Positions 7,902-60,297 of a stretch of 64,000 nt of DNA are shown in pieces. Every line of letters begins with the position of its first letter. The first letter of the stretch is position 1. A model generated the notes under the pieces. It made no database searches, had not been told where the DNA came from, and saw nothing but the letters and a program-made list of their open reading frames with translations. This DNA comes from Morinoia aosen (lineage: Eukaryota; Arthropoda; Malacostraca; Amphipoda; Talitridae). The DNA is taken from contig CM059572.1 of NCBI GenBank assembly GCA_030386875.1, positions 40,049,732 through 40,113,731 on the forward strand. The letters run 5' to 3'. The translations under genes were made by a program, and so were the position numbers.

Positions 7902-8260
7902 TGCCCCTCAGGGTGATACAACTGTTGTATCTATGGGAATAAGCGCTCCTAGGGGGACAATGTGAGGGCCCGAGCTGAGAGTTAGGTAGGCCTTCTTTTT
8001 GTTGAAATGAAATGTTTTAGTAATGTTAAAGGACCATCTTTATTTCGGTTCACTGCTGTCCTGTTTTTCAGCACCTACTACTTTCTTCTTCAACTTTTAT
8101 CTTGTTTCATGAACTTATTCTCAACTTACTGTTTCTATGCCCTTTCTACATAGATTCCACGTTTTCTAAACTCCATTCTAAGTGGTGCTTTCCTCCTTCC
8201 TCTCTTTGAATCGCCTTTGTTGCGGCTTAAACTTACTAATGATCTAATCTAATCTATCAC
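7902..8260 (+). mobile_element. DR family copy A (SINE-like, full length)
   Basis: A 359-bp unit that recurs at least six more times in this window. It starts with cccctcagggtgatacaactg and contains the core ggttcactgctgtcctgttt followed by cagcacctactactttct. It ends after cctttgttgcggcttaaact with a short ctaat-type tail (gatctaatctaatcta). It is flanked by caacag on both sides (7896-7901 and 8261-8266), read as a target-site duplication. It has no open frame and no clear tRNA-type A/B box. Confidence 0.75.
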
Positions 8261-8346
8261 CAACAGTAACCGACCGAAGGGAAATCTTCAGGTGGTGTGA
8301 GGAAATTACGGGTTCTACTTTGGCAAACCGCCCAGTCTTCTCACGA

Positions 8347-8591
8347 GCCTATCTTTCCGGTTCCCTGATGTCCTTTCTTTTCAGCACGTACTACTTTCTT
8401 CTATAACTTTAATTTTGTTTCATAAACTTCTTAAATAGCGGTTTCTATACGAAGGGAATCATGCAGAAAACACACCATGCGCGTATTTTCCCCGTTCTCT
8501 TAGGTCCAAACTAAATGGTGCCTTCCTCCATTTTCTCTTTGAAACACCGTTGTTGTAGTTTGAGAGACTCAAACTAACTAGCGATTTAATC
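8347..8591 (+). mobile_element. DR family copy B (5'-truncated)
   Basis: Aligns to the DR consensus from the core (tttccggttccctgatgtcc) through the 3' part (ggtgccttcctccattttctc, then actcaaactaactagcgatt). The first ~130 bp of the family are missing, as expected for incomplete reverse transcription or later deletion. It lies only ~85 bp after copy A, in the same orientation. Confidence 0.65.
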
Positions 8592-8633
8592 TCTCTCGAA
8601 AAAATCATTTTCACTGGAGAATTCAGAGATCAA

Positions 8634-9290
8634 GAAGCCAACAGAGTTCACGAAGCCAACAGAGTCCAGGAAGCCAACAGAGTCCAGGAAGCCAACAGAG
8701 TCCAGGAAGCCAACAGAGTTCAGGAAGCCAACAGAGTCCAGGAAGCCAACAGAGTCCAGGAAGCCAACAGAGTCCAGGAAGCCAACAGAGTCCAGGAAGC
8801 CAACAGAGTCCAGGAAACCAACAGAGTCCAGGAAGCCAACAGAGTCCAGGAAGCCAACAGAGTCCAGGAAGCCAACAGAGTCCAGGAAGCCAACAGAGTC
8901 CAGGAAGCCAACAGAGTCCAGGAAGCCAACAGAGTCCAGGAAGCCAACAGAGTCCAGGAAGCCAACAGAGTCCAGGAAGCCAACAGAGTCCAGGAAGCCA
9001 ACAGAGTCCAGGAAGCCAACAGAGTCCAGGAAGCCAACAGAGTCCAGGAAGCCAACAGAGTCCAGGAAGCCAACAGAGTCCAGGAAGCCAACAGAGTCCA
9101 GGAAGCCAACAGAGTCCAGGAAGCCAACAGAGTCCAGGAAGCCAACAGAGTCCAGGAAGCCAACAGAGTCCAGGAAGCCAACAGAGTCCAGGAAGCCAAC
9201 AGAGTCCAGGAAGCCAACAGAGTCCAGGAAGCCAACAGAGTTCAGGAAGATAACAGAGTCCAGGAAGCCAACAGAGTTCAGGAAGCCAAC
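8634..9290. repeat. 18-bp minisatellite, ~36 copies
   Basis: Tandem unit gaagccaacagagtccag, with a few gagttcag variants near both ends and one aaacc variant near 8815. The unit and its complement contain none of TAA, TAG or TGA, so all six frames are open. Minus-strand frames read repeats such as VGFLDS (part of a 256-codon frame) and WTLLAS. These frames are a property of the unit, not evidence of a gene. The array sits between DR copy B and a short DR fragment. Confidence 0.95.
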
Positions 9291-9323
9291 ATTGAACTTA
9301 AGAAACGTTGCATTGCGTACTTT

Positions 9324-9351
9324 CGCTTCACTGCTGTCCTGTTCTTCAGCA
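9324..9351 (+). repeat. Short fragment resembling the DR core
   Basis: The stretch gcttcactgctgtcctgttc followed by ttcagca matches the DR core (ggttcactgctgtcctgtttttcagcac, given here only as a landmark), but the match is lost on both sides. It may be a broken copy next to the 18-bp array or a chance relic. Confidence 0.35.
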
Positions 9352-9407
9352 TTCAAAGGCTAAAATTCAAATTGATTCAAATGCTTCAGTGGACTGCTTG
9401 AAATCAG

Positions 9408-9665
9408 ACTGGAGAATGGTTGTGACAACGTCTTCGAGGGCGCAGCAGAAAACCTGTCATTTTTGTATGTCGTCAGAAAAACGTTCACGCTAGAAGATTT
9501 TGGCCCCATAAAAGGCCAGTCTGGAAACTACCAAAATCTTTAAATTTGAAATTCATCTAAACAATTATGAAGAATTGAGACCATTCACCATTTGGCAAAT
9601 GGTTGTCACAGCGTCGGCATAGACGCTGTAAAGAACGTGTCCTATTTGTGTGTCCCAAAAAAATT
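9408..9665 (+). repeat. Diverged ~75-bp direct duplication
   Basis: 9408-9483 and 9588-9665 align: ggagaatggttgtgacaacg against ggcaaatggttgtcacagcg, then aaaacctgtcatttttgtat against agaacgtgtcctatttgtgt. Translated in the matching frame, the first copy reads WRMVVTTSSRAQQKTCHFCM and the second is similar but interrupted by two stops. This suggests an old duplicated, possibly once-coding segment of unknown identity. Confidence 0.5.
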
Positions 9666-12254: not shown

Positions 12255-12261
12255 ATAATTA

Positions 12262-12577
12262 ATGTATGAAAAGCTCCCAGGGGGACTGTGTGAGGGCCTG
12301 AGCTAAAGGTTAGGTAGGCTTCCTTTTGTTGAAATAAAATAGGTTTTTCTTTGTTACGGACCATCTTTTTTCGGTTCACTGCTGTCCTGTTTTTCAGCAC
12401 CTACTACTTTCTTCTTCAACTTTTTCTTGTTTCATGAACTTCTTTCTTAGCTTCCTGTTTCTGTGCACCTTGTGCATAGATTCCGCGTTCCCTCAACTCC
12501 ATACTAACTGGTGCCTTCCTCCTTCCTCTCTTAGAACATCTTTGTTGAGCAATTAAGGGAGGCTAAAACTTTCTTAT
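12262..12577 (+). mobile_element. DR family copy D, abutting the LINE
   Basis: Recognisable from aagctcccagggggactgtg through the core cggttcactgctgtcctgtt to gagcaattaagggaggctaa. The 5' end is diverged compared with copies A, F and G. Its 3' end meets the AT-rich tail of the minus-strand LINE at about 12578, so the two elements lie tail to tail. Confidence 0.7.
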
Positions 12578-12747
12578 ATATAATTATTATTATTATTATT
12601 AAATCAAGCAAAGCAACCCCAACGGGACGGATCGGGGATCCATAGATTTCACATAGGAAACCCGCCAGCATCAACTCCACGAACAGTGAAACAAAAACAA
12701 AGAACAAAGAGAATACTAAAGGAAGAAAGCAGGAGAAGAAGGAGATA

Positions 12748-14133
12748 TCAACCACGAAACAACCAGGAGTTGACAGCACCTTTGAAACCACCCAACGAAC
12801 CCGAATCGAACACGGCAGAGGGAAGGGAGTTCCAGCGGGCAACGGAACAAGGGACAAAGCAACGCCTATACTGCGAAGTCCTACATCTAACTTCCCTCAG
12901 CTCAAAACTAAGAGCAGCAGCAGCAGCACGGGTAGCCCGAATCCGCTCGGCCCGTGGGGGAAGCATATGGAACAACCAATGCCTTCTATTGTTGAATAGC
13001 TTATAAAAAACGCAAAGTTGGGCAACTAGCCTTCTGTGCGCCAGAGACGGCAGCACCAAACCCGGACATAGCGCAGATGCAGATCTTACAATGCGATCCA
13101 AGAGACGCAGGTGGCAATCAGCCACAGAGCCCCAAACAGGCAAACAATACTCGAGCAGAGGAAGAAGAAAGGCACAGAAGCCTCTCCGCACCAACTGAGG
13201 GTCCTGATAAATTCCACCAATTACCCTCAGGATCCCCAGCCTTTTGGAGACCTGTGAGACTACCCTCCGCACATGAGCCTCAAATGTGAGCCTCCCATCA
13301 AACCGCACACCCAGGAAATCAAGTTCAGGGTAAACCTCAATGACTCCCCGACCTATGACTAGCTCACCGAACGGAGGCTCACTGGTCCTGGATCTACTCA
13401 CTATGAGCGCCTTTGACTTACTAGGATTAAGTATCATATTCCACCTCAAGCACCATTCGTTGATGCGTAACAAATCAGCATTCATGTCTTCCACCACCGC
13501 TGGACGCAACATGGGACCGGGCACAACGGCGACTAATGACGAGTCATCAGCATAAGCAATAAAATTACTTCGCACAAGATCAAACATCTCACTGGTGTAC
13601 AAACCAAACAAGAGAGGACCAAGTACACAGCCCTGGGGCACACCTGAGACAACCTCAAACCAGTGACCCGCCACTCCGTCAACCACCACTCTCTGCCTTC
13701 GTCCAACCAAAAACTCTTCACATATTGATAACAACTTGCCACCAACCCCTGCGAGTGCCAACCTGTGCAAAACACCTACATGGCTAACTCGATCGAAGGC
13801 CGCGCTGAAATCCAACTGTACAACTACAGCCTCACGACCCGCATCCAAAGCAGTCTGAAGCAGGTGGGACACGGATAATAGCGCGTCTGTACAGCCTAAT
13901 CCACGTCTGTAAGCAAATTGAGCTGCAGGGAGGAACCCCATACTCTCACAATATCGCGACAGTCGACCCACAATTAGCCGCTCGAACACTTTTGCTAGGA
14001 CTGGGGTGATAGAAATAGGACGATAATTCTCCACCAGCGGAGAAGGAGGACCCTTAGGGACAGCCGTCACATTGGCTGATCTCCAGCAACTCGGAAATTG
14101 ATCAGACCTAATCAGTGACCTTAAAAATGACAC
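12748..14133 (-). CDS. LINE reverse transcriptase, intact 461-codon segment
   Basis: RNA-directed DNA polymerase of the retrotransposon, which copies element RNA into the target site. Visible motifs are NYRPIS at residues 36-41, QLDFSAAFD at 106-114 (catalytic Asp in the A motif), SGVPQGCVLGPLLF at 163-176 (B motif) and the active-site box YADD at 194-197. The LNPSKSKALIVS and LDFLGVRFDGRLTF segments follow. The C-terminal part (LEYCLPVWG, then FVPCSVARWNSLP) is typical of CR1/Jockey-group LINEs that lack RNase H. The ATG at 14133 is only the first Met after a frameshift; RT homology continues upstream in another frame (14108-14440), so it is not the natural start. The catalytic residues are intact, but the polypeptide is cut off from its endonuclease. 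Confidence 0.88.
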   Translation of the reverse strand: MSFLRSLIRSDQFPSCWRSANVTAVPKGPPSPLVENYRPISITPVLAKVFERLIVGRLSRYCESMGFLPAAQFAYRRGLGCTDALLSVSHLLQTALDAGREAVVVQLDFSAAFDRVSHVGVLHRLALAGVGGKLLSICEEFLVGRRQRVVVDGVAGHWFEVVSGVPQGCVLGPLLFGLYTSEMFDLVRSNFIAYADDSSLVAVVPGPMLRPAVVEDMNADLLRINEWCLRWNMILNPSKSKALIVSRSRTSEPPFGELVIGRGVIEVYPELDFLGVRFDGRLTFEAHVRRVVSQVSKRLGILRVIGGIYQDPQLVRRGFCAFLLPLLEYCLPVWGSVADCHLRLLDRIVRSASALCPGLVLPSLAHRRLVAQLCVFYKLFNNRRHWLFHMLPPRAERIRATRAAAAALSFELREVRCRTSQYRRCFVPCSVARWNSLPSAVFDSGSLGGFKGAVNSWLFRG

Positions 14134-14763
14134 TAAGTTTGGGAGCTAGCACCTCAGCCGTCTCCCTGAAAAACAGCGGAAACACACCCAACGGGTCGAC
14201 CCCACCACCCACATCAAGTTCAGAGAGTAAACGTCTAACCTGACCAAACCTAAACGCCAGCGAACAACACAAGGGTCTTGGGTAGCATGTGGGAGGCAAT
14301 ACAAAATTCTCCCTACACTGCTTACCGTCAAATTGAGTGGTGAGCAGCTGCGCTTTCTCTACAGGATCAACCACCAGTGCCATTCCAGGATCTAGGAGGG
14401 CAGGAAGAGCAGGCCTAGCACCAAATACAGCTCCCTTCAACGTAACCCACCATTTGTGCGAAGACGAGGAGGAATTGAGGGCATCCCGCAGTCACCGATC
14501 ATGTCTCTCACGAGCCCCGGCGTAAACTACCTGGGCTTCATTACGAGCTCGCAAGTAAGCCTCCCACCCAGGTGGGGTCTTAGACCTAGTCCAAGCGCGG
14601 AACGCTGTCCGCTTCGCATCAAAGGCAGCTCTACACTGACCATCGAACCAAGGTTTATCAGAAGACTTGACACGAGAACCACCTTAGGGACATAACGTTC
14701 GACCACATCAGCAACCGCTTGATTCAGCAAGTCCAAAGGTGCCCTGGAGCGTAAAATCTCACC
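14108..14763 (-). pseudogene. Broken endonuclease-RT linker of the LINE
   Basis: Connects endonuclease to RT but is scattered over frames. From 14763 to about 14680 it continues the endonuclease frame (GEILRSRAPLDLLNQAV) after a TGA. A one-base shift near 14675 moves the sense reading to the frame containing DKPWFDGQCRAAFDAK. A TGA interrupts that frame near 14490, then it continues through MKGAVFGARPALPALLDPG to SVIFKVTD at 14108. A second shift near 14125 moves into the RT frame. The pattern is mutational decay of one ancestral frame. Confidence 0.75.
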
Positions 14764-15567
14764 TCAAGGGAAACACCGGACAGCCCCCCTAACAGTAGTC
14801 CAATTGGTTCTGTTCTTCAACATAACCACCCGGCGAGTGTTCAAAACAGGCACGGCTTGACGAACAAGTAAACAACACTCAAGCACACAGAGGTCAGAGG
14901 TAACCAAAGGGGGAGCAACAGAAACCCTGACAACATCAGGAACATCCGTGAGCACCAAGTCCAGGCAGTTCCCCGCAATATGAGTCGGACCCTGAACAAG
15001 TTGCGTGTAGCCAGACAGGTTGGAAAAGTCCAAAGTATTATGACCATGCACATCGGTGGGCGAAACAGAACCCAGCCACTCAGTGTGGTGTGCATTTGCA
15101 TCACCCATGAATACAAAGACTGCCTTTGGGTCAGAGGACTGAGCTCGTGCCATCAAATCCAACAGGCAATCATATAAAGAGCCATCGTGCCCCGGATTAC
15201 GATAAAAGGCCACCAAGTAGAAATTAGACACTGAGCCACAAACCCGTACCACCATATACTCGTGACACTCGCATTCCAAATTCAAGCGCCTATAGGCGCG
15301 ACAACCCTCTCGAATATAGAGGGCCATCCCACCAGTACCCCCAGTGGGCATAACCAGCCTCAACTGAGGCGACGCAAATCCCGGGACCCGGAGCTCAGCC
15401 GGGTGTCTCCGATCTGAGACAAGAGTCTCTGACAAGAACAAGATATCACACCGGGAGGCAGCAACGGCTAACTCATTCAAATTGGCCCTGCGTCCCCGAA
15501 TATTGGCACAAAGTACAATCAACTCCCTACCAACCACGGTGGGTCTCAACCCCGCCATACCAAACAA
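14764..15567 (-). pseudogene. LINE AP-type endonuclease with a lost catalytic His
   Basis: An apurinic/apyrimidinic-type endonuclease domain, which nicks target DNA during LINE insertion. Motifs in order are VLCANIRG (Asn22), FLSET (Glu47), VAFYRNP (Tyr122), FMGDANAHH (Asp146, Asn148), CLDLVLTD (Asp203) and TSDLCVLEC at 223-231. The last motif is normally S-D-H; here residue 226 is Leu (codon at 14890-14892, CTC where CAC is expected), one base away from the catalytic His. The frame then ends at a TGA (14764-14766) where a Trp is plausible, and the reading continues in the same frame beyond it. The protein is therefore both truncated and catalytically dead by inference. Confidence 0.85.
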
Positions 15568-15825
15568 GGAAGACCCAGATATGAAAGGATAGAATGAATA
15601 GAGAAAAAAACAATAAAGTGAAATAGCAAGGAAAATGAGAATATGAGAAGAAAAAAAAAGAGAAAAGAAAAAAGAGAAAAGAAGAGAAAAGAAAAAAGAC
15701 CGGAGGATGGAAGGCTGCGGAAGACCAAATTAATGGCTATGGCGACAGCCCGAACCCCACCAACACGAAAGATCAGAGGAGATACAGAGCGGAAAAGATA
15801 GAGAGGCACGCTACCTAACTTGGTC

Positions 15826-18800
15826 TATTACAGGTTATTTACATGAACACTTTAACATAGTAGAGAAAATTTGCAATAAGAAGCCTTAAATTTATGTGGG
15901 AAAACAGACCCATAACAATCCAACTGTAGCTCAGCCTGCGAGATCACACAAATTACATCCCCGGCAGCGATGGGCAAACAGGGAAATGGCACAGGGAAAT
16001 GACACAAATAAACAACCTAAATAATGTATGTATGAAAATATATCATGATCCATGAAACTGAATAGCAGGTCATTTGGATGAAATGTTTGGTTTAGTTTGA
16101 AATATTTACCTTAGTTTTTAGGCATGCTTTTTTTAATTCAGATTAATAGTTCAGGCATCTTCAGTACCTTCATTGAAGTCGTATTCGTAATTTTAGTTAC
16201 TTAGTGATAGTGGGTCTTCGTGTGTGGTGAATAATTTTTCTCCCTGTTGCATGGACATTTTGACAACGGTAGTTGCTGCCCAATGTTTAAAATTAATTGC
16301 AACACTTCCTCGAGGTAGACTTGGGCACTTTGATGACTGCTATTAAATTTCAGATTGGGCGTTGCTAAATAATTAGCTGTAGGGTTATTGGACTGACTTT
16401 TTTCTCGAAAAAACTTTTAAATTAGGCGAAATTATACGTGAAAATACATCAACTTTGACAGTTTTGGCCATAAAAAAAGTTAATCGAGCAGCTATGGTTA
16501 AGTTCTACAGCCGCAAATCACGGTGTGAGCGCCAGAACTTTGGGGGAGGCCCGTCCGTTTGTTTTTGCTAAACCAATTAAGCTGGAGAAAGAGTTATGAC
16601 GAACCTCCACACATCTCACACTTAAAATGAGCTATTCGTAAGTCAATTTTTGATTTTTACACAGATAGGCTCAAAGTATTGGTATATTTCGTCTCAGAAG
16701 ATCATTTAAGCTCCACCTGAAAAATATCTCACAGCAGTGAAATTTACCACGGGCATCCTGATACCAAATTTCTCAAAGCTCAAGCGCAAGAACAATTAGA
16801 AAAACATTTAATTGTTTGTCATTCACAAGAGCGAGTAAGGAGGTAACTGGAATTGTTTGGTGTTCTCCTGAAGAGCAATTGGCTGACCAAAGAGCAAGTC
16901 AAAAATAAGAAAATTCTCGAAGAAGAATTTTCGCCTCGAAGAAAATTCTCATCGAGGCGCAATTTTGAGTTGAAGCTTGAATGATGTATCAAGTCAGTCT
17001 TTGTGAGTGGCGCGCGATGATTATAAATTGATGATCAAAAAACTTTGGAACTTTGATGAAAACTTGTAAATTTGATCCGGTCTATCGCACCTAAACATGT
17101 ATTAAAGCTTGTTGATAACTACAGGAAATGTACGATTTTCTCTTCTTCCATCTGTAAAAGTAAAACTTTTGCAGCTAAGAACCTCTCGCATGGCTTATTT
17201 ATATCCTAAACGAGTGAAAGCCAAATCAAAAAGTGTGCAGAGATTTGTCCCAATGAGGCATCATAATCGTAAAACTACTTCAAAGCAATGCAGATCCTCA
17301 AGAGCGAAAAATAGTGTGAAACTTTCTCAAAGTAATGCGAATAATGAGCATGTTGTCACTAGCTTATAAATGCATTTCAGTTTCAAATCAGACTAGTAAA
17401 TGACCGAAGCAAACAAGCGTCCATCCTCATGACTTGAGGAGTAAATTTTCAATTTAAGAGCTGACAGGAACCCGTCAGCAGCGTTGAGACAAGTGTCACA
17501 GTGACTCTGGGCCTGCCATACATCGATGCTGCAGCGCGCGCAGTCCGCGGTAGTGCTCGCAGTTACATGCAGTCAATCTGTCCGATATCGCACCGCTCAA
17601 GACCTGCCCTAATGGTTTCCGATAGAGTGACTTGCCCTAGGGTATTCTGCATGCCTTCCTATCGCCGCTGCTGATGCTGCTCTCGCCGCCCATAGCTCCT
17701 TCTTCGGCGTCGATGTATCCTTTGAAAAAAGCGATTCCCCCGGGCTATGGGTATCTGTATTCATGAAATGCCACCCGCAGCTCGCATGGAGAAGGCAATG
17801 TATAGCGCAGAGTGAGGGAGAGCAAAATAGAAACGTTTTGTGTTCTTATTCAGAGCACGTTTCCTGGGTTCTTTCTTTAGATTCCAAAATTTCTTAGAAG
17901 AATGAGCAAACATGCATGGGAACCTGCTACACATTTCTTTGCTAGAACGTACCGAAGGAAATGATTGAAGGTCGGATAAAAATAGGATAATGTTTACGCA
18001 AAACTGATGTTCTGAATTTTTATTCGTTCAACTTAATCAGTCCTCAATGAGAAAGAGTGCAAAACCAGAATAAATTTAAGCAACGTTAAAAATAATGCTT
18101 ACTTTCTTCGAGTAACGTCAAAAGTTCAAAAATTTAAATTATTACAGCCTACGTCGTGCGAGTCACCTCAAGTGTAGCGGCCCAACAAGATAAATGACAG
18201 AAATAAGACAGCAGCATCTGCGACAGTGTCTGCTGGCTTCATCATTCCAGTTCTTGCTTCAGTTTTTCTGCCCCTGCGCAGGGGAAGCGATCGCTCGATT
18301 TTTGAGAGCAACATTGGAAGTTTGTCCGACATGGCGCTGTGCGCTGTGAGAGCGCTGATTCTTTCCGCAACCGCAGCTCAAAACGGGGGCCCATTGGTCG
18401 AGCTCGTGTTTCCGATTTAGAACATGTGGTGGCTCTCGAAAAGCCAGAGCGAAGACGCCGTTCAATCCATGTGTGGAAGCAAATGTTTTTTGTTGCTTGA
18501 ACACTCACTTCCATGGTTTGCTGATAGCTTCAGCTGTGTCAGTATTCGTCGCTGGGCATCAAGTGACAGTTTGAGACACTGCCAAAACTCTAAAACGCTT
18601 TTTCAACTAACGCATTAAATATTTCACTTCTCAAGCAGCTATTTTTTCACCTATATTATTACTTTTGGAAGTGCTGTTGTGAGGAACACTGGAGCTATAT
18701 TTTAACACGTAAGGTCGTTAACTAAACGTCTAGTTTAATGTACTGCGGCTAAATTGTTTACCAGGCGGTTGTGTTTTAAAAACCTTAAATTCTATGAAAT

Positions 18801-19465
18801 AAATTTTCAGAGGTTCCTTGCGTCCCTATTCTTCAGAGCGAATAGATGCCAGACATTCTCCTGCACTATATCTATTCAGAGTAAACGTAGGATTCCAGTC
18901 CCCCTATCCAGACATGTTTTGGTGGTGTCTGTTTTCGTCAAAGCTGTTCACTAGTACTTCCTAGCGCTGGGATCAGTAACGACTGGTACAGGGATTACTT
19001 ATTTTTATTATTATCAGGGGTTTTTTACCTATTATTATAATGATATTTATAAGGTTTTATTCTTTAGTTTAAGGCTCCCTAGCCAATACAAAGATAATTT
19101 CTATAGAGCGAAGAAGGAACCATTTACTGTGAACTTTAGAAAAATGAAAATCTAGGCACCAGCTGTGTTCCCACTCAAGATATTCTGTGCATAGCACCAG
19201 CAAGTGGAAAAGGAAGAGAAAAAAACAGTGAAGAAGTGGCGAAGGAAACACGAAAACTAACAAAAGCTAAATGGGTCCGAAAGGCAAAGATCCGATGGCC
19301 TATCCATTGGTGAAGCGCATAACAGTACCGCCCACCCCTTACCTTCTTCAGAGAGTCAATGCCGATACCAATAGCATGTGACAGACAAACCAAACTAACC
19401 TTTACCTGTTGCCAGTCCTATGGGGTTAGTCCTGGTTTACTCGTTTGACTTTATTTTTCTTTTTC
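15826..19465. other. No supported gene
   Basis: AT-rich with GC-richer islands at about 17500-17780 and 18220-18560. No frame in either island is recognisable. A small local palindrome (cctcgaagaaaattctcatc followed by gagg) lies near 16934. An 86-codon plus frame at 17109 is Lys/Arg/Ser-rich without domain signature. Confidence 0.4.
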
Positions 19466-21819
19466 AACTCCCCAGTCGTCATGAATTTTAGCGTCCTTGT
19501 CGCCATGGATTTAAACTCCCCAGTCGTCAGGAATTTTAGCTTCCTTGTCGCCATGGATTTAAACTCCCCAGTCGTCAGGAATTTTAGCTTCCTTGTCGCC
19601 ATGGATTTAAACTCCCCAGTCGTCATGAATTTTAGCGTCCTTGTCGCCATGGATTTAAACTCCCCAGTCGTCAGGAATTTTAGCTTCCTTGTCGCCATGG
19701 ATTTAAACTCCCCAGTCGTCAGGAATTTTAGCTTCCTTGTCGCCATGGATTTAAACTCCCCAGTCGTCATGAATTTTAGCGTCCTTGTCGCCATGGATTT
19801 AAACTCCCCAGTCGTCATGAATTTTAGCGTCCTTGTCGCCATGGATTTAAACTCCCCAGTCGTCATGAATTTTAGCGTCCTTGTCGCCATGGATTTAAAC
19901 TCCCCAGTCGTCATGAATTTTAGCGTCCTTGTCGCCATGGATTTAAACTCCCCAGTCGTCAGGAATTTTAGCTTCCTTGTCGCCATGGATTTCAACTCCC
20001 CAGTCGTCATGAATTTTAGCGTCCTTGTCGCCATGGATTTAAACTCCCTAGTCGTCAGGAATTTTAGCTTCCTTGTCGCCATGGATTTAAACTCCCCAGT
20101 CGTCAGGAATTTTAGCTTCCTTGTCGCCATGGATTTCAACTCCCCAGTCGTCAGGAATTTTAGCTTTCTTGTCGCCATGGATTTCAACTCCCCAGTCGTC
20201 AGGAATTTTAGCTTCCTTGTCGCCATGGATTTCAACTCCCCAGTCGTCATGAATTTTAGCTTCCTTGTCGCCATGGATTTCAACTCCCCAGTCGTCAGGA
20301 ATTTTAGCTTCCTTGTCGCCATGGATTTAAACTCCCCAGTCGTCATGAATTTTAGCTTCCTTGTCGCCATGGATTTCAACTCCCCAGTCGTCAGGAATTT
20401 TAGCTTCCTTGTCGCCATGGATTTCAACTCCCCAGTCGTCAGGAATTTTAGCCTCCTTGTCGCCATGGATTTCAACTCCCCAGTCGTCAGGAATTTTAGC
20501 TTCCTTGTCGCCATGGATTTAAACTCCCCAGTCGTCAGGAATTTTAGCTTCCTTGTCGCCATGGATTTCAACTCCCCAGTCGTCAGGAATTTTAGCTTCC
20601 TTGTCGCCATGGATTTAAACTCCCCAGTCGTCAGGAATTTTAGCTTCCTTGTCGCCATGGATTTAAACTTCCCAGTCGTCAGGAATTTTAGCTTCCTTGT
20701 CGCCATGGATTTCAACTCCCCAGTCGTCAGGAATTTTAGCTTCCTTGTCGCCATGGATTTAAACTCTCCAGTCGTCAGGAATTTTAGCTTCCTTGTCGCC
20801 ATGGATTTCAACTCCCCAGTCGTCAGGAATTTTAGCTTCCTTGTCGCCATGGATTTCAACTCCCCAGTCGTCAGGAATTTTAGCTTTCTTGTCACCATGG
20901 ATTTCAACTCCCCAGTCGTCAGGAATTTTAGCTTCCTTGTCGCCATGGGTTTCAACTCCCCAGTCGTCAGGAATTTTAGCTTCCTTGTCGCCATGGATTT
21001 CAACTCCCCAGTCGTCAGGAATTTTAGCTTCCTTGTCGCCATGGATTTCAACTCCCCAGTCGTCAGGAATTTTAGCTTCCTTGTCGCCATGGATTTCAAC
21101 TCCCCAGCCGTCATGAATTTTAGCTTCCTTGTCGCCATGGATTTAAACTCCCCAGTCGTCAGGAATTTTAGCTTCCTTGTCGCCATGGATTTCAACTCCC
21201 CAGTCGTCATGAATTTTAGCTTCCTTGTCGCCATGGATTTCAACTCCCCAGTCGTCATGAATTTTAGCTTCCTTGTCGCCATGGATTTCAACTCCCCAGT
21301 CGTCATGAATTTTAGCTTCCTTGTCGCCATAGATTTCAACTCCCCAGTCGTCATGAATTTTAGCTTCTTTGTCGCCATGGATTTCAACTCTCCAGTCGTC
21401 ATGAATTTTAGCTTCCTTGTCGCCATGGATTTCAACTCCCCAGTCGTCATGAATTTTAGCTTCCTTGTCGCCATAGATTTCAACTCCCCAGTCGTCATGA
21501 ATTTTAGCTTCCTTGTCGCCATGGATTTCAACTCCCCAGTCGTCATGAATTTTAGCTTCCTTGTCGCCATGGGTTTCAACTCCTCAGTCGTCAGGAATTT
21601 TAGCTTCCTTGTCGCCATGGATTTCAACTCCCCAGTCGTCAGGAATTTTAGCTTCCTTGTCGCCATGGATTTCAACTCCCCAGTCGTCATGAATTTTAGC
21701 TTCCTTGTCGCCATGGATTTCAACTCCCCAGTCGTCAGAAATTTTAGCTTCCTTGTCGCCATGGATTTCAACTCCCCAGTCGTCATGAATTTTAGCTTCC
21801 CTGTCATCATGAATTTCGA
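19466..21819. repeat. 48-bp minisatellite, 49 copies, open on both strands
   Basis: The tandem unit begins aactccccagtcgtcaggaa and ends gtcgccatggattta. Because 48 is a multiple of 3 there are long frames on both strands: 796 codons on plus (repeat NSPVVRNFSFLVAMDL) and 805 on minus (repeat MATRKLKFLTTGELKS). Three sites vary repeatedly: AGG/ATG after gtc, agcTTC/agcGTC, and atttA/atttC. Units with linked ATG+GTC occur only in the first ~12 copies, atttA is concentrated in the first half, and ATG+TTC units dominate copies 37-44, so neighbours resemble each other. Most rarer substitutions change the amino acid in either frame, which argues against coding. No promoter, spliceable exon or known domain was seen. 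Confidence 0.95.
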
Positions 21820-24970: not shown

Positions 24971-26050
24971 GGGATTGGTGGGCTGTGTGCACAGCATGAG
25001 TGGGGCTGGTGGGCTGTGTGCACAGCATGAGTGGGGCTGGTGGGCAGTGTGCACAGCATGAGTGGGGCTGGTGGGCAGTGTACACAGCATGAGTGGGGCT
25101 GGTGGGCTGTGTGCACAGCATGAGTGGAGCTGGTGGGCTGTGTGCACAGCATGAGTGGAGCTGGTGGGCTGTGTGCACAGCATGAGTGGGGCTGGTGGGC
25201 AGTGTGCACAGCATGAGTGGGGCTGGTGGGCAGTGTGCACAGCATGAGTGGGGCTGGTGGGCTGTGTGCACAGCATGAGTGGGGCTGGTGGGCAGTGTGC
25301 ACAGCATGAGTGGGGCTGGTGGGCAGTGTACACAGCATGAGTGGGGCTGGTGGGCTGTGTGCACAGCATGAGTGGAGCTGGTGGGCTGTGTGCACAGCAT
25401 GAGTGGAGCTGGTGGGCTGTGTGCACAGCATGAGTGGGGCTGGTGGGCAGTGTGCACAGCATGAGTGGGGCTGGTGGGCAGTGTGCACAGCATGAGTGGG
25501 GCTGGTGGGCAGTGTGCACAGCATGAGTGGAGCTGGTGGGCTGTGTGCACAGCATGAGTGGGGCTGGTGGGCTGTGTGCACAGCATGAGTGGGGCTGGTG
25601 GGCTGTGTGCACCGCGTGAGTGGGGCTGGTGGGCTGTGTGCACAGCATGAGTGGGGCTGGTAAGCTGTGTGCACAGCATGAGTGGGGCTGGTGGGCTGTG
25701 TGCACCGCGTGAGTGGGGCTGGTGGGCTGTGTGCACAGCATGAGTGGGGCTGGTGGGCTGTGTGCACAGCATGAGTGGAGCTGGTGGGCTGTGTGCACAG
25801 CATGAGTGGGGCTGGTGGGCTGTGTGCACAGCATGAGTGGGGCTGGTGGGCTGTGTGCACCGCGTGAGTGGGGCTGGTGGGCTGTGTGCACAGCATGAGT
25901 GGAGCTGGTGGGCTGTGTGCACAGCATGAGTGGGGCTGGTGGGCAGTGTGCACAGCATGAGTGGGGCTGGTGGGCTGTGTGCACAGCATGAGTGGGGCTG
26001 GTGGGCTGTGTGCACAGCATGATTGGGGCTGGTGAGGAAAATGCACAGTT
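24971..26050. repeat. 31-bp G-rich minisatellite, 34 copies
   Basis: The unit starts ggggctggtgggctgtgtgc and ends acagcatgagt (31 bp), with a first copy at 24971 and a degenerate last copy after 26024. Each unit has 15 G and 5 C on plus, giving strong G skew, plus the 8-bp palindrome tgtgcaca. As 31 is not a multiple of 3, successive units shift frame and all three minus frames stay open (367-408 codons, Pro/His/Cys-rich); these are artefacts. Copies 1-8 (25002-25249) show the same ordered variant pattern as copies 9-16 (25250-25497), a 248-bp higher-order duplication. A ccgcg variant marks copies 20, 23 and 28. Confidence 0.95.
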
Positions 26051-33907: not shown

Positions 33908-34540
33908 ATCGGGTCTGAGTATTGTTCGTCACCTACATGGCTGGAACTAAGATTTGTTCTTAGTTAAACTCGTCAGAACTAAATATTGTTCTTCGCTTAC
34001 GACGTCGAAACTTGGTGTTGTTCTTCACTGACAACTTCAAAGTTAAGATTTGTTCTTCGTTTGTGAAATCGGAATTAAACATTGTTTATTTTTCGTTTAT
34101 GACCTCTCAGGGGTATAGAAATAATGCTTTTGTGTAAATCCGCGCTCCAAGGAGAAAGACGAGAGGCCTCTATCTGAAGGTTAGGGAAAACTTCCTTTGT
34201 TGAAATAGAATAAGTTTCTTGTTTTGCAACGGACCATTTTTTCGTCAGTTCACTACAGTCCTCTTCTTTAGCTCCTGTTTTCTCTCCCTCAACTTCTATC
34301 TATCTTGTTTCATGAAATCCTTTTAACCTTGAAAATTCTAAGCTCAGAGTGTGGGGACACACCTAGAGCTCAGATTCCTTTTCCTGTCAATTCCATTTTA
34401 AATAAAAATTTTTTCCCTTCTCTTTCGGGAGCGCCTTTGTTGTGATTAGGGAGGCTGGAACTAAATTTTACGCAATCTAATATGATTATCATTGATGACG
34501 CTGGAATTAGGTGTTGTTCTTCACTTATGACATTATGACA
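33908..34540. repeat. ~32-bp tandem repeat split by a DR insertion
   Basis: About six units share the pattern ggaactaagatttgttcttc followed by a variable tatgac-type end between 33908 and 34103. After the DR element (34104-34494) the pattern resumes with ggaattaggtgttgttcttc at about 34502. The interrupted repeat gives independent evidence for the DR boundaries. Confidence 0.65.
34104..34494 (+). mobile_element. DR family copy E, inserted in a tandem repeat
   Basis: A 391-bp diverged copy beginning ctctcaggggtatagaaata, with the core gtcagttcactacagtcctc and the end tttgttgtgattagggaggc then tggaactaaatttt. It is bordered by atgac at 34099-34103 and 34495-34499, a probable 5-bp target-site duplication. 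It carries an insertion of about 40 bp relative to copies A and F in its 3' half (tcagagtgtggggacacacc region). Confidence 0.7.
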
Positions 34541-41447: not shown

Positions 41448-41459
41448 TACTAATCATAC

Positions 41460-41815
41460 GTTCCTGTCAAGGGGATATAATTATTGTATCTGTAGGAATA
41501 AGCCCTCGCAAGGGGAATATGTGAGGTCTCGAGTTAAAGGTTTGGTAGGCTTTCCTTTGTTGAAATAAAACAGGTTTTTAATTTTGTAACAGGCCATCTT
41601 TTTTCGGTGCACTGCAGTCCTATTTTTCAGCACCAACTACTTTATTTTCCAGCCTTTATATTGCTTGTTAAACTTCGTTCTCAATTTACTGTTTCCATGC
41701 TACTTGCGCATAGACTCCGCGCTCTCTCAAGTCCATACTAAATGATACTACCTCCTCCCTCTCTTAGGAACACCTTTGTTGCGTTTAGGGAAGCTTTAAC
41801 TAAAACCTTACCTAG
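41460..41815 (+). mobile_element. DR family copy F, with 12-bp target-site duplication
   Basis: A 356-bp copy starting gttcctgtcaaggggatata, with ggaataagccctcgcaaggg, the core ttcggtgcactgcagtccta, and the end cctttgttgcgtttagggaa then gctttaactaaaac. It is flanked by tactaatcatac (41448-41459) and tactaaccatac (41816-41827), a 12-bp duplication with one mismatch. The length and ends agree closely with copy A. Confidence 0.78.
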
Positions 41816-41827
41816 TACTAACCATAC

Positions 41828-43394: not shown

Positions 43395-43512
43395 CCCAGT
43401 CTAAATTTTTCGCCGCCTGCATGCGTGTTATTCGTCGCCTAAGCGATTTAATCGCTTAAATCGCTTAGGCGGTGAAAAACATGCATGCAGGCGGCGAAAA
43501 ATTTAGACTGGG
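43395..43512. mobile_element. 118-bp foldback element, copy 1
   Basis: Two 56-nt arms separated by a 6-nt loop pair at 52 of 56 positions. The left arm begins cccagtctaaatttttcgcc and the right arm ends ggcgaaaaatttagactggg. The innermost 15 bp (cgcctaagcgattta) pair perfectly. Matching dinucleotides tc lie at 43393-43394 and 43513-43514. A second copy at 48604-48711 shows it is a repeat family, not a local accident. It is non-coding. Confidence 0.8.
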
Positions 43513-43514
43513 TC

Positions 43515-45860: not shown

Positions 45861-45864
45861 TTAC

Positions 45865-46931
45865 GTTTCTACTGCTATAAATCGCGTAATATTTTTCGTT
45901 CACCATCATATTTTAAAGTGATTATGTCCCGCTATTTTGTATCTTTCAGGTTATGAAAATTTCACTTTAGAAGTACCTCTGACAATGAAGTAGGCTTCTC
46001 GAATATTCCTAAGCATAACCACCAATGATTTATTTTTACTTGAATTTTGCGGCGTTCGCTCGTTTGCACTTGCGTGTCGTTTAGGAGCGGCCCTGAAAAA
46101 CATGATTAAAAATCAAGAGGGGGGGCTATCGCATCTGTTTCCATTTTCAGATCTTTCAGTTGAGAGCAGTCCGCTGCTATGAATTTATGGGGAAAATATG
46201 TCTACTTGCACCACTGAGCCCAGTTGGAGATATTTTTCTAGACCTCGTTAAGTGACCCCTCAGAGGGATGCAACTGTTGTATCTTTGGGAATCAGCGCTC
46301 CCAGGGGGACAATTTGAGGTCCCGAACTGAGAGTTAGGTGGGCTTTATTTGTAAATAAATAGAATATGCATTTCGTTTTGTTAGGAACTATCATTTCTGG
46401 TTCACTGCGATCCGGTTTTTCAGCACCTCTGACTTTCTTTTTTAATTCTTATCATGTTTTTTAATTTTCCTTCTCAACTTACTGTTTCTATCCTGTGCGA
46501 GAGTACATCTTATGCATAAATGCCACGTTCCCTTATCTCCTTACTTAATGTAGCATTCATCTTTCCTCTCTTTGAGCACATTTGTTGTGCTACGGGAGGC
46601 TGAAACTAAATTATAATGAAACAGTCAACCAAATAAGGTGATACTATTCTTTTCTTATAGCTAACAATCTATTTTCGTACCGAATACTACTGTCTTTACA
46701 AGATCTAGAGACTTGATTCCAAACGTGTAAACTTGCTCGTTCCAATAGTACTACTCTTCACTACAACGACACTCTGCATTTAATAGCCCCACGTACTGTG
46801 CAACTAGCTCATAATTCTGCGTTACTACTGCTTTTAAATCGCGTAATATTCTTCGTACACCCTCGAATTTGAAAGTCATTATGTGCCACCATTCTATGTC
46901 TTTTAGGTAATGAAAATTTCTCTGTAGAAGG
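45865..46931. repeat. Two diverged ~108-bp copies flanking a DR element
   Basis: 45865-45975 and 46821-46931 align over about 108 bp. Shared pieces include aaatcgcgtaatatt, ttcgt(t/a)caccNtc, attatgt, and ttttaggtaatgaaaatttc against tttcaggttatgaaaatttc. Each copy contains an acceptor-like pyrimidine tract and AG just before gttatgaaaattt or gtaatgaaaattt, but stops follow soon after. DR copy G lies between them. This is either an old segmental duplication or an unrecognised dispersed repeat. Confidence 0.6.
46250..46615 (+). mobile_element. DR family copy G
   Basis: Starts agtgacccctcagagggatg then caactgttgtatctttggga. The middle reads gcgctcccagggggacaatt, followed by the core tggttcactgcgatccggtt. 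It ends ttgttgtgctacgggaggct then gaaactaaattata. It is close to copy A at the 5' end. A target-site duplication is not clear (agtga against aatga at best). Confidence 0.72.
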
Positions 46932-46935
46932 TCGC

Positions 46936-48603
46936 ATTTTTGTTGAATGGTTAGCGCAAATCCTTTGTTCGGGTGTTGACAATCCTCGCGCCGAATTTGG
47001 AGCAGAGCTGCCGGAGTCGAGGTTCATTAAGGAACTCTTCGTTAGGTGGAGCCTCGCAATTACGGCCCTGCAACTGCCTCTTGCCACTCGCTGCTGCCTC
47101 TCCGCATTATTCCGACGACTTGCAGTTATTATCACGGCTTTACAATATTACTTCGAGGCTCTCTTAACTTCTATTAGCCTAGCCAGAGTTACCATAGAGG
47201 TGTCGTCTTTTCTTGTTCGTGATTTCTGAATTTTTTTTAAATTTTTCCTCGGTTCTAAAAGATTGGTTTTGCCGCAGCTGAAATTTCCTCGTGGAAACAA
47301 TTCGATGCTTTATAAGATGAAGTGCTTAAATTGTTTCTTTTACTGTTTTATGCAATAGAAGAGACATGGTTTTTATCGCTGAATGCTTCATATTCGACGT
47401 GGCATAAATATCCTAAAATATTTATTGTAGCCGGTTACAAAACGGGATCAACAGTCTCCCTCGTGCTTCAGTCCTCAAGATCGAGTAATACATGCAGCGT
47501 GCACTTCTTTTCGGTTCCGCGCGAACTTCAGTATTTTTGCTCTTTTCCTAATTTTCCTAATTATGGTCACTCTATCAATTGGAAATCATCTTACAGCTGT
47601 TCATTCGAACTTCTCATTTTTCAAGAACTATCTTCAATATTGAGCAATTTTAAATGGGAATATTTCTCTAGTTTGGCAAATTTTTGTGTTTGACATTTGA
47701 CTTCATGTTGTTGAAAGCGTGCAACGGCTTCATGCGGTCTGTGCAATTTAAATAGAACACTTCTTACTGCTTGCATCTGAGTTGCATTAAATCTAAAAGA
47801 AAAAATAATAATTTGTTATACCTTTCTTTATTATTTTTAACAGTACCTCGACAAAGCGCGCAACACAGCTCTAATTTGGTGTCCTGTTGAAAATATGAGT
47901 AATATATCGTAGTCGTCGTAGAACAAATTATTCAACGAAAGCGCTTTTAATGTTACATTCTACGTAGAAATTACTGATCGGACTGAAGTTTGTGTACAGC
48001 AACCAAAAGCCACCAAACACCCATGACTTTGTGGAAGTTTCATTTAATTTATGGTGCAAATGTTCTCCTTTGCTTCTGAAACAACTTCTGTTAAGTGAAG
48101 TGGGGCAATTCGTGTGAGCCACCAGTTCAAGCAATGCGCGTTTATTCTCATAAAAAGCACTACTACACGGTTTTCAAAGATCCACAATGAAAATTAACAT
48201 AGCCTCCTTTCACCCGTCGTACATCACAGTATGTTGTTCTAGCCATGCGTCTCCGTCACGCGCACGACCCAGTGCTGATGTAATAATAGCTTTAATAATT
48301 CACAGTTAAACATCCGTGGAAGTTTAAGCCCTGCTTCAACTTTCGTGCTAACTTTCAATGCAGACCTCCAAAGTCTAGAGATGTTGTTCAGGTCTCAGTA
48401 ATTCACTTCTAAATAATTATGAAAGTTGAGCCAAACGGAGCATATTAGTTTTGTTTACATTCAGTTCGTTTTCTGGAGTTGAGTGCTGGAATGTGTCGTG
48501 CGGCGTAATTTGTTGCCCTTGAACTTCCGGGACAGTCTGTAGCTTGCGCAAACCAATATTTTACATTTGAGGTACCGCAAAAATCCTTCGATGTCAAATG
48601 CGA
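46936..48603. other. No supported gene
   Basis: The 46970-47140 stretch is GC-richer, with opposing 64- and 108-codon frames. A 123-codon plus frame at 47322 (Ser/Phe/Tyr-rich) has no signal or domain I recognise. Confidence 0.35.
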
Positions 48604-48711
48604 CCCAGTCTAACTTTTACGCAGCCTGCATGCATGTTTTTCGCCCCCCAAGTAATTAAATCGCTTAGGTGACGAAAAACATGCATGCTCCGGCGAAAAA
48701 GTTTGACTGGG
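48604..48711. mobile_element. Foldback element, copy 2 (108 bp)
   Basis: Same family as 43395-43512: left end cccagtctaacttttacgca, inner atgcatgtttttcgcc, right end ggcgaaaaagtttgactggg. The centre is about 10 bp shorter and the left arm has more substitutions. It is bordered by ga on both sides (48602-48603 and 48712-48713). Confidence 0.75.
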
Positions 48712-49195
48712 GAGCATCGTTGAGACAATTAACAGATGAAACATAAGCATGCTGCAATAAATTATTTCGTATTGAACAAAATTCACCTCGCACGAAGTGC
48801 TAGGACAGTAAACAACGAATACAAACCATGAATGAGAGATGATTCCACCCGTAAACACGGAGTAAGATTTCTTGCTTTCTCATGCAGTAATTTTTTACCC
48901 TCGCATGGAGTTAGTTATAAATAGTTTATATTTTCGTTATGGGTGGCGATTATAGGAGCAGCAATACCTTACTGAAGGAACATTGATGTACGTCAAGTTA
49001 TAGTTACAAGTCCCATTTAGCGAATCTCTTGATAATATTTCCGAAGTGCAGCTATTTCATTGTTTGCATAGTCATTAGAGGTTATTTTTCTCCTAAATTA
49101 CCAAAATCTTCGGAGACTAGCTTACGGTAGCACAAAAAAAAAATAAATGCGTATTGTACGTTGCAAAGACTGCACGAACATTAACGACTTCAACA

Positions 49196-52227: not shown

Positions 52228-55200
52228 ATTAACAAACGCTTAAGAACAAGCCATAAAATCATTTTTTACTTTTATTAACTCTTTTTACTTTACTTCGCAA
52301 TCATACTTCATTAAAAGTCCACTTGTTCTATTTAACTGATATTACCCTCATCATTACATCTACGCCTAGATTTTATTAGCATTTGGTTTACACGTAAGAG
52401 TCTTTACGTGACAGTAGTTTTACATCGTACCTCTTAATTGGCTCCTTCCCGTTATTTTTTTCCCATTTAAAGGATTCGGCTCAGCAGTACTGTTTTTGTT
52501 TTATCTTTACTTTTTCATCATCTTTTCGCCCGCAGAAGTGATTCAATCTCTCTTCAAACCATGTAATCGAATGTTTGTCTTGTTTGTTTTTGTACTCACT
52601 TGGGATCTCAATTTTTTTGCGTGGCTCATAATTTCCTGCTAGAGTATCATTCCATTTTCACATTCTTTAAAAAATATGAAACTTAACGACGCCCCCACGA
52701 CGTGAACTGTCGTACCAAAAATATACCGTTGAAATGAACAGCCAAATCACAGTCGAGAAAGAAACATTTTCTATCCAACAAGCCAGGAAATTCAACTCTG
52801 GATGGACATTACTTCTTTTCGATGTTGAATTTTGGTGATCCCGAACATCAGTAAATCCGATCAGGTGATTTTAACGCTTTTCGCTCACCTTCTTGTCACG
52901 CTCAGCTGATCGCTGCCGAAATTTTTAGCAAGATTCTAGGGCCTTTGGTTTTATCGACCAGATAGCTGCTGCAGAACACCGGTCGTCTCTTGGAAAACTT
53001 TTCGCCTGATTTTTCGGCGTTGCTGCTTCCTCAACGCTACGCAACTCGGCCGGAAAATTGAGGTTTTCGGAGTTCAACCTCCTTTCAAATCTCCAGCTTT
53101 TCAAGTTGTCTCTCTGATTTTGTCTGAAAAATTGCCCCTCTTCAAATAGAAAGTTCAGATATTTTATGGTATTGCATTTAACGATTTAACATGACTGTTA
53201 CACAAAAATTATAACACGTGTCGAAACGCTGGATGATGCATTCAAAGACAAAAACATCTATGGTCGTTTCTCCATTATCATAATCATTTTTATCATTTCC
53301 GTTTTTCAATCTGAGAAGAAGACCGGAGTGAAAAGCGAGCTCAATCATAAGAAAATTTCTCCTAATTAGCTTTTCTTCAGGTCTTCACTGTTTTCTATAA
53401 TTACCAGACGAGCAGCCTTATCTCTCGGGAAAACACCATGAATGCAAAACTAATCTTGAGTTAGGGTATTTCTTTGCCAAAGTATGTTTTTCCTTCCCTC
53501 GCTCCACGGATGCGCGCCAAGATATTTTTCTGTGTGATTACAGCGTACATTTATAATAAAAGGGTATATTGCTGCAGAAAAAAAGAGGTTACAGATATTT
53601 TGCTTCCACGTTCATGCTGTCATTTTGCTAAAGCAAAGAACATATTCGTTCGCTACAGTTGAGTCTCCACAGAAGGAAGTCGCTCAGGCGGAAAATGGTC
53701 AAGAGCGCAACTCTTAAACAAAAAACGCTGAATAATGATTTGTTCCTGGCACCTCTACTGAGTTCTATCAAAGATTGTCTTCAGATTCGATGTCCGATTT
53801 TTTCATTCATGTTTAAAAAATAACAAAGGTACATGAAACTATACTTAGATGAAAGGATCAATATACGTACATTTAAATGAAATGCGCTATATGTTTTTCA
53901 GAATTTTGACACTTTCATAAAAGACTTCTTATCTTATTCAATTGTCGAACAGGGAGAGCACAGTTGTTTTGTCGCTTCAGTTTGTACCCTTTTTATTGCT
54001 GGAAACATTTAACTATGATAACATGATTCCTTGCTACCTTAGGAACATTATGGCATAAGCAAACCAGTTAATTGGAGAAATGCCAGTAATTACAGATCCC
54101 GATAAATATTTCTTCAAGAAAATGATTCAAATGTGAGAACAGGCAATATCATTTAAAAATCAGAGCTCTCTTCTAAGTAGGAAAAGATTCTTGTTCACTG
54201 GTCTAGTGAGTCTACTATATTTAACTCGAAAGAACGAATTATTCACCCGACAAGCGACACTGAATGACATTCTATTCACCCGCCTCCCATGCCGACAAAT
54301 CTAAAGAAACGAAACAAAATTTGCGAGGCAAGGGTTCATTTCAAAGTATTTTTTTACCAACTCCATTCGCTCATTCAGTGACAGTGCACGTGATGCAATT
54401 ATCTTTGTTTGAACTAAATTGTTTAGTGTAAATTTTATCGCTTCGCCACCTCCAGGCGAGGCACAAGGCTCACGGTAAAAACTAAAAATCTTTTGAAACG
54501 ATTCCATTCGAACTCACTTCAATAAAAAGCGTTTGTACGCCTGCATTATTACGAATAAAATTGAAATGCCAGCTGTCCATTGTGTCGAAAATACTGATAG
54601 TACTTTGTAGTGCTTGTGTTTGTGAACCAAGGTTGAACCAGATTTATCTATGATCACGCTACAAAAGCATTAACTATTAAATAACCATTATACCCGTCCA
54701 GTTCAGAAGATGCGTATAAAAGGAATTCGTACGATGGAGAATTTAGATTTGAATCTGATATTTCTCTCCTGAAATCAGTTGCTATCTTTCGTTTTTTATT
54801 TTCTTAGGCAAGATTTTTAACGTTGTGTAGGTTTTTACAAATCTTATCGTAGCTTTCAATTCCACGTGGAATAAACTCATACAAATGAATGCATGGTTAC
54901 TCATGCTTCCATAAAAGACTATTTCCAACTGATTGATAGTTGGAAGCGTTGGTTAATATCATGAATCTTGAAATTGAATAATAAAAACTGTGAGCTTTCA
55001 CGTACGTACTTTCAGTATACGAGGAATGCAATTAGCATCATAGTGTGGACATTGAATAAATAATTATAATTTACCTGTAGTGAAATTATATTTATTTATG
55101 CAGTGTGTGCTGAAAAATACCTGCTGCTTCGAAAATTGTTTGAATACCCAATAAAAATGGGCGCAAAAACTTTTTCGTTTATTTTTCCAACCTATTTTTA

Positions 55201-55605
55201 GGTTTCTGCAGGCGAAATTTGAAGAGACAACATTAATACTTATTAATACACAGTGCACTTTTAAAAGCCCCAAGTGCATCAATGAAATTTATCAAAGGTG
55301 CTGCAACAGTTGTAAAAATATTCACAAGAGCACAAACATTTTTCCAAGCCTCACGGGTGATAGTTTTTCTTACCGTTCATCAGCGTGCTGGTCTTCTATG
55401 ACTTTAGGTAGACTTGAAAACACCAGTGTAAATATTTGTGTGAACATATTGCACTCAATCTAGATGAGCATGATCATGTGAGGGAAAATCATTCAAATCT
55501 GTTATTTTGCACCGATTAAAGATGCGTTGGTTCAGGAGTTTATTATTCATGGTCAGCCCTTCTAGCAGAGTGAAAGCTAGGGACGATTTTGGTTCCCCAT
55601 GGCTC
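52228..55605. other. No supported gene
   Basis: AT-rich. A 68-codon minus frame at 54301-54507 (ASRALSLNERMELVKKYFEM) is protein-like but isolated and unassigned. No repeats noticed. Confidence 0.35.
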
Positions 55606-58796: not shown

Positions 58797-58841
58797 GCTC
58801 TCTCTCACTCTCTCCCTCCCTCTGTCTCTCTCTTTCTCCTC
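58797..58841. repeat. TC-rich simple repeat
   Basis: ctctctctcactctctccct then ccctctgtctctctctttct: about 45 bp of pyrimidine repeat. Confidence 0.85.
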
Positions 58842-59203
58842 AAATGCGAACGCTCGTATTTGTATTCTACTCGTGTATTTCCCTCCAAGGATGACCGTGT
58901 CGTTTGTTCTTATACCCTTCAAAAACCTGTTGATCACAGGTCGTTAATACATTATTTATGCATTGATCACTATTATGCGTTCATCCTAAGCATAATTTCG
59001 AATACTTGAGATGTTTGAGCTTCCATTTTTCGGAAAAGGGGGTTTAAAGAAATGTAAAATTCATAATTTGATGCAAGTTTTTGTTTTGCAGCATTTGAGT
59101 GTAAGAGAACAGTCAGAAGATACACTCAATAACGCAACCTAAGGCAAGTCAATTTACCTGAATTTTTAGTCGTGAATTTTGCTTTTTCGCTTGCGATAGC
59201 ATT
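58842..59203. other. No gene seen
   Basis: AT-rich spacer before the 24-bp array. Confidence 0.4.
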
Positions 59204-59619
59204 TCAATACATGATTTAACTCAACATTCAATGCATGATTTAACTCAACATTCAATGCATGATTTAACTCAACATTCAATGCATGATTTAACTCAACATT
59301 CAATGCATGATTTAACTCAACATTCAATGCATGATTTAACTCAACATTCAATGCATGATTTAACTCAACATTCAATGCATGATTTAACTCAACATTCAAT
59401 GCATGATTTAACTCAACATTCAATGCATGATTTAACTCAACATTCAATGCATGATTTAACTCAACATTCAATGCATGATTTAACTCAACATTCAATGCAT
59501 GATTTAACTCAACATTCAATGCATGATTTAACTCAACATTCAATGCATGATTTAACTCAACATTCAATGCATGATTTAACTCAACATTCAATGCATGATT
59601 TAACTCAACATTCAATGCA
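59204..59619. repeat. 24-bp minisatellite, 17 near-identical copies
   Basis: Seventeen full units (59204-59611). The first differs by one base (caatac for caatgc) and the next sixteen look identical. The unit reads tcaatgcatgatttaactca then acat. As 24 is a multiple of 3, plus reads (MHDLTQHS)n and minus reads (NVELNHAL)n; both are artefacts of the repeat. The near-perfect identity points to a very recent expansion or to assembly-time copying. Confidence 0.97.
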
Positions 59620-59908
59620 CTGAGCACTTTTTGATAGCTCTCCGCACTTTCAAACGGTATTTAGATTATTTATTTAAACGGTCTACTTATCTCTCGAAAG
59701 CACTTTGAGGGAGTATTAATTCCTGAAAACACTACACAGTTAGGACATTGCAGCAAAGACCATATCAAGGTAAAGCCATCCGAGCTTTGGTCCAGTGTGG
59801 TCTTGAATAAACTTAATAGGGTTGAAGCGTTGGCGTATGAAAATCCAGAGGGGACGAAAACAAAAGATTACCTAACTAGAGAGAATTGCCGCAGTTTACA
59901 ATGCCAGG
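59620..59908. other. No gene seen
   Basis: Spacer between the 24-bp array and DR copy H. Confidence 0.4.
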
Positions 59909-60297
59909 GATTCTCTCAGGGAGGTACTTGTATTGCATTTATAGGAATTAGCGCTCTCGAGAGGAAGATGTGAGAGTCCAAGCTGAACGCTTCGTGGGCT
60001 TTCATTAAGTTGAAACAAAACGGACTTGTTTTTGTTACGGGACATCTACGTATGTTTCACTGCTGTCCTTTTTAGTGCCTATTTCTTCCACTATAATAAT
60101 ATTGCATGGACATCTTCCAACATTGTTTTTTCTATCCGCGAGGGATATGGTGTGGGAATACAGTTATGTGCAGATTCCTCGTTCCCTCACATAGTGTTTT
60201 CCTCTTTCCACTCTTTCCTTTATACAGTGTCTTCCTTCTTCATTTTTGGAACTAATTTTATTCTAATGATTAAACTTAAACTAACTTATATTCTAAA
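59909..60297 (+). mobile_element. DR family copy H, diverged
   Basis: Starts gattctctcagggaggtact, then ggaattagcgctctcgagag, gttgaaacaaaacggacttg, and the core tgtttcactgctgtcctttt. It ends tttggaactaattttattct then aatgattaaacttaaactaa. It is the most diverged full-length copy, and no target-site duplication could be fixed. Confidence 0.62.

Follow-up and report, generated by a model that had tools for sequence, protein, structure and literature searches.

The pattern left by target-primed reverse transcription is well established for non-LTR elements. SINEs, as set out in part of one account, are classed by their heads, which are of 7SL type in SINE1, tRNA type in SINE2 and 5S type in SINE3 (PMC7245038). 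Parts of the same account describe bipartite, non-autonomous derivatives of RTE/LINE elements (PMC7245038), and a portion of another presents NARTc and RIME of trypanosomatids as comparable truncated versions of LINEs (PMC4035085).

Here we describe a repeat family, DR, in a 64,000-nucleotide stretch of the genome of the amphipod Morinoia aosen, the whole of which is referred to below as the window. DR resembles SINEs in being short and dispersed, in its common 5' end and common 3' part, in the variable length of its duplications and in its LINE-type insertion, but differs in that searches for a Pol III promoter, a tRNA and Rfam families detect none in it. With the bipartite RTE/LINE derivatives it shares its shortness, a fixed 5' end and, presumably, movement by a parent LINE, whereas an HDV-like ribozyme at the 5' end was not recognised in four heads and was matched at the null rate in a fifth. 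We consider it quite probable that DR is an old, short, apparently non-coding and non-autonomous retroposon family, inserted in trans by the enzymes of LINEs. The family is possibly uncatalogued; four DR strings had no match in the literature text that was searched, which says little.

Copies of the DR family in the window

When the six longest copies, namely A, C, D, E, F and G, were made into an nhmmer profile and the whole window was searched with it, nine matches were returned, comprising these six near-full copies, the part copies B and H, and one scrap of 31 bp. DR is a real dispersed repeat family in the window: the seven copies proposed in an earlier, sequence-only reading are confirmed by the profile, copy H and the scrap of the core having been overlooked. 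The order of landmarks described there also holds, except for the GGGAGG of the end landmark, which A and G lack and which B, E and H carry in altered form. Profiles from which one copy was left out recovered all six near-full copies, and the reversed window together with 20 dinucleotide shuffles gave no match to the DR profile at E ≤ 1.

Five copies are full length and lie on the plus strand: copy A at 7903–8256, with the 5' end and a CTAAT-rich tail (profile bounds 7899–8261, held-out E-value 3e-81), copy D at 34101–34489 (34100–34489, 1e-44), copy E at 41460–41815 (41459–41816, 5e-73), copy F at 46254–46632 (46251–46632, 6e-64) and copy G at 59909–60310 (59906–60310, 1e-33). The held-out match of copy G ends at 60215, so the 3' limit of this copy is less sure. 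Copy C, at 12273–12577 on the plus strand with an approximate 3' limit (12261–12595, 3e-74), is truncated at its 5' side. The part copies are B, at 8341–8590 on the plus strand, which keeps the 3' two thirds without the head (profile E-value 1e-35), and H, at 19056–19245 on the minus strand, which keeps the 3' half (3e-14). Seven of the eight copies thus share one strand, H being the exception. The scrap, at 9320–9351 on the plus strand (1e-4), is 93.5% identical to copies A and C.

The element measures about 355–400 bp. Pairwise identity among the six near-full copies is 56–84%, which indicates an old family, and copy G is the most diverged of those at full length. Conservation is fairly even along the element, at 0.73–0.88 per block of 25 columns with 0.64 in the final block. 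A short stretch is present in B, D, F, G and H and absent from A, C and E; this distribution suggests two subfamilies, and is what would be expected from successive source copies.

Each of the six near-full copies contains 3–11 stops in every frame on both strands, and the longest open stretch per frame is 24–99 codons, none of them being long in the same frame across copies. Elsewhere in the window, an open frame of 974 codons lies at 3362–6283 on the minus strand; it has an LDL-receptor class A domain at its end and probably represents one large exon of a protein that is secreted or membrane-bound. This exon and the LINE described below are suggestive of animal DNA.

Several other repeats were observed in the window. 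There are four highly homogeneous minisatellites (96–99% matches), at 8634–9291, 19462–21817, 24976–26034 and 59203–59619, with units of 18, 48, 31 and 24 bp respectively. The first of them belongs to a composite stretch at 8341–9351, in which part copy B is followed by the 18-bp array and the array closely by the 31-bp DR core scrap; such an array may have originated within a DR copy or next to one. Near-palindromic stretches are found at 43395–43512, 48598–48717 and 55049–55106. The first two (91.5% and 78% self-inverted, respectively) form one family at about 81% similarity, and resemble short elements of the foldback or MITE type. On either side of copy F lies a direct repeat of 111 bp, 82% identical, at 45864–45973 and 46820–46930, about 0.95 kb apart, which is suggested to be a separate small repeat or the remnant of another element.

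Element ends, flanks and target-site duplications

Copies A, D, E, F and G, which are five of the eight when the scrap is excluded, start at one point within about two bases, in agreement with the earlier statement that five or more copies have the same 5' end. Their 5' consensus is G(A)CCCCTCAGGG, and the common end is marked by GACCCCTCAGGG. Among the five, pairwise column identity reaches 0.84 over the TCAGG anchor, stands at 0.56 for the five preceding bases and falls farther upstream to 0.22–0.36, where the background is 0.26. Copies C, B and H are shorter and end before reaching the head. The common 3' part has the consensus GGGAGGCTNAAACTAA followed by a variable tail, which is CTAAT-rich in copies A and D.

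When 2 kb upstream and 1 kb downstream of the six near-full copies were compared, blastn found no match between copies at E ≤ 0.01. The tblastx comparison of the flanks gave a single match of 36 residues between the upstream sides of C and D (E 0.007), which is taken as chance. Local tandem or segmental duplication was considered as an origin of the copies and rejected because the flanks are unrelated.

These ends and flanks bear on the suggestion that each copy is just the 3' end of a longer LINE, cut short on insertion. Such an origin would suit a conserved 3' part with a tail, and also copies C, B and H, which stop short of the head. The truncation points of LINEs are normally scattered, whereas five of eight copies begin at the same point here; moreover, no upstream DNA is common to the copies in the window, and when ten plus-strand open reading frames lying before C, D, E, F and G were compared with Pfam, nothing passed the cut-off and no RT domain appeared, the two weak hits being to Det1 and an importin repeat (both E 0.05). 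The common 5' end, the unrelated upstream sequence and the lack of an RT domain in these ten frames disfavour this alternative, which the earlier reading had left standing and which we now regard as improbable.

Target-site duplications were sought in the five headed copies by scoring direct repeats whose first unit abuts the 5' end of the element and whose second unit follows closely on its tail; the null was formed by 1500 placements chosen at random with identical geometry. Copy A is flanked by TCATCAACAGT at 7892–7902 and TCACCAACAGT at 8257–8267 (11 bp, 1 mismatch, score 8, reached by 0.47% of placements), and copy E by TACTAATCATAC at 41448–41459 and TACTAACCATAC at 41816–41827 (12 bp, 1 mismatch, score 9, reached by 0.13%). 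In both copies the duplications directly abut the element ends. They had been read as 6 bp in A and 5 bp in E, and both figures are to be corrected accordingly; the 12-bp duplication reported for copy F was not found, its score of 3 being the null median. Against the random placements, the duplications of F and G (score 0) are not above chance, nor is that of D, whose score of 5 is attained in 23% of placements, and copies B and H have no readable duplication. With the duplication of copy C described below, lengths do vary slightly among A, E and C (11, 12 and 11 bp). Duplications are present in three of the six near-full copies, or three of eight counting B and H, and the age implied by 56–84% identity would be enough to account for the loss of readable ones from D, F and G.

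A dispersed non-coding repeat of this size is also compatible with a MITE, a Helitron derivative or a solo LTR, and in A, D and F the homology may be taken to begin with TG. LTRs and most DNA transposons produce short duplications of fixed length, and Helitrons, to our knowledge, produce none, whereas those of DR measure 11 and 12 bp. In A, D, E, F and G no terminal inverted repeat exceeded the shuffled level (0.38–0.99 of 200 shuffles did as well), and a 5'-truncated copy with a duplication of its own fits target-primed reverse transcription instead. We therefore hold an origin of this sort to be very improbable.

A truncated copy and its neighbouring LINE

The start of copy C had been placed at 12262, which proved wrong: the bases at 12262–12272 are target sequence, and the family sequence of the truncated copy begins at 12273 (GCTCCCAGGGGG). 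The 11 bases that precede it, ATGTATGAAAA, are repeated exactly at 16028–16038, about 3.45 kb past the end of the copy, and copy C is truncated exactly at the junction where its duplication ends. A match of this quality was equalled at 0.2% of 1000 random junctions, searched over a 550-bp stretch about 3.5 kb away, although the true chance is higher than 0.2% because this stretch was picked post hoc, after the match had been seen.

Between copy C and its second duplication lies a minus-strand LINE at 12751–15729, with its 3' tail at about 12578, in which Pfam recognises parts of an endonuclease and of a reverse transcriptase that occupy separate open frames. Its (TAA)n end, which appears as (TTA)n at the junction, touches the tail of copy C. 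No duplication of the LINE's own was found, the stretches compared having no common 6-mer. From this arrangement it is probable that copy C was inserted with truncation and that the LINE landed later in its tail.

The LINE is a non-LTR element adjoining a DR copy, but it lies on the strand opposite to copy C and its (TAA)n end is unlike the 3' end of DR. Its RT had no relative among viral contigs. Exact-match scans of viral contigs with five DR patterns found nothing for four of them, and the fifth, of 16 bases, matched nine contigs, which we take as chance because the pattern is short. One DR pattern had no match in prokaryotic genome contigs, and copy C had none in phages.

The fixed 5' end, the common 3' part, the varying duplications and the 5' truncation together point to target-primed reverse transcription by a LINE enzyme acting in trans. 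The endonuclease of a putative helper LINE would nick the target site for DR RNA, and reverse transcription would presumably be primed at the 3' end of that RNA, GGGAGGCTNAAACTAA with its variable tail. Copying would run back to the 5' end of DR and leave duplications of 11–12 bp, and sometimes it would halt early and give rise to a truncated copy such as C. Against this explanation stand the presence of duplications in only three of the six near-full copies, the incomplete end landmark in A and G, the fact that the second duplication of copy C was found post hoc and that the intervening LINE shows none of its own, and the excess of copies on one strand, which it leaves unexplained. Nor was a helper LINE with the 3' end of DR seen in the window, or a promoter recognised.

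The head of DR and the source of its RNA

The earlier reading had recognised no tRNA-type promoter boxes, and the box scan, the tRNA search and the Rfam search agree with it. No tRNA was found in the window, nor by ARAGORN in the DR consensus, and no Rfam family reached its gathering score anywhere in the window; at E ≤ 5, copies A and E gave no Rfam match and copy F gave three that were far below gathering score. The first 150 bases of the consensus contain no A or B box at ≤1 mismatch. Copies A and D have a loose A-box/B-box pair (2 mismatches in total) near 97 and 146, and pairs as good were reached by 24% and 14%, respectively, of 100 shuffles. For the best pairs of each of the five copies, on both strands, no fewer than 14% of shuffles did as well. 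The copies available for these tests of a Pol III head are few and diverged, which limits their power.

A conventional SINE, with a head derived from tRNA, 5S or another small RNA that has diverged past recognition, would be a sub-case of LINE-driven insertion in trans. Its size, its sharp 5' end and its duplications of variable length would all fit, and the loose box pair of A and D would speak for it. That pair, however, is within the range of shuffles, is not the best one in E, F or G, and stands some 100 bases inside the element, while the consensus boxes, tRNA and Rfam family sought above were not found; we consider such a head doubtful. The description of DR as a LINE-driven SINE hence stands in part: the 5' end, the duplications, the truncation of copy C and the flanks support a short retroposon driven by LINEs, and a SINE in the strict sense is unsupported. 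With neither Pol III boxes nor a tRNA or Rfam family recognised, DR is not filed as a SINE, though it works like one.

Given a head without a recognisable Pol III promoter, the source RNA may be an internally deleted LINE transcript or a small RNA that escapes recognition, expressed from a putative promoter. The former, also a sub-case of insertion by LINE enzymes, would make DR a bipartite element that joins the 5' UTR head of a LINE to the 3' UTR end of the same LINE and is moved by this parent. We give it somewhat less than an even chance, and it is at least as likely as a SINE. It would agree with the sharp 5' end and with the failure to recognise a small-RNA head, and RTE-type LINEs, according to part of one source, often yield derivatives that lack the internal portion (PMC7245038). 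On the other hand, no LINE with a 5' or 3' end like that of DR was seen in the window, and the one LINE next to copy C ends differently, in (TAA)n.

The 5' end of DR was also approached through ribozyme structure. A home-made descriptor of HDV-like ribozymes, for which a nested double pseudoknot should begin close to the first base, had no hit in A, D, E or F and had hits in copy G, as in 27% of the shuffles of G. Conserved RNA structure was attractive by eye, with several hairpins and the 5' GACCCCT pairing over a long range with AGGGGGAC, and we make no claim for it. In a covariation scan of the six copies the best helix scored 6.1, short of the 7.6–9.1 of the top ten among 40 alignments with shuffled columns; the filter, on the other hand, let 186 helices through, more than the null mean of 110 and maximum of 145. 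That the head is of an uncatalogued kind, neither tRNA, 5S, 7SL nor a known LINE 5' UTR, seems to us a slender prospect, and the same slight weight attaches to the accompanying idea that a structured RNA start, with stretches such as CCCCTCAGGG and ATACAACTGTTGTAT towards the 5' side of copy A, might fix the 5' end of both transcript and copy.

Taken as an insertion product of LINE enzymes acting in trans, DR is a result of repeat annotation, one more short LINE-dependent retroposon of an ordinary kind, together with its two subfamilies and a probable nesting in which copy C was inserted and a LINE then entered its tail. It would matter more if its 5' end were shown to be fixed by some means other than a Pol III promoter.
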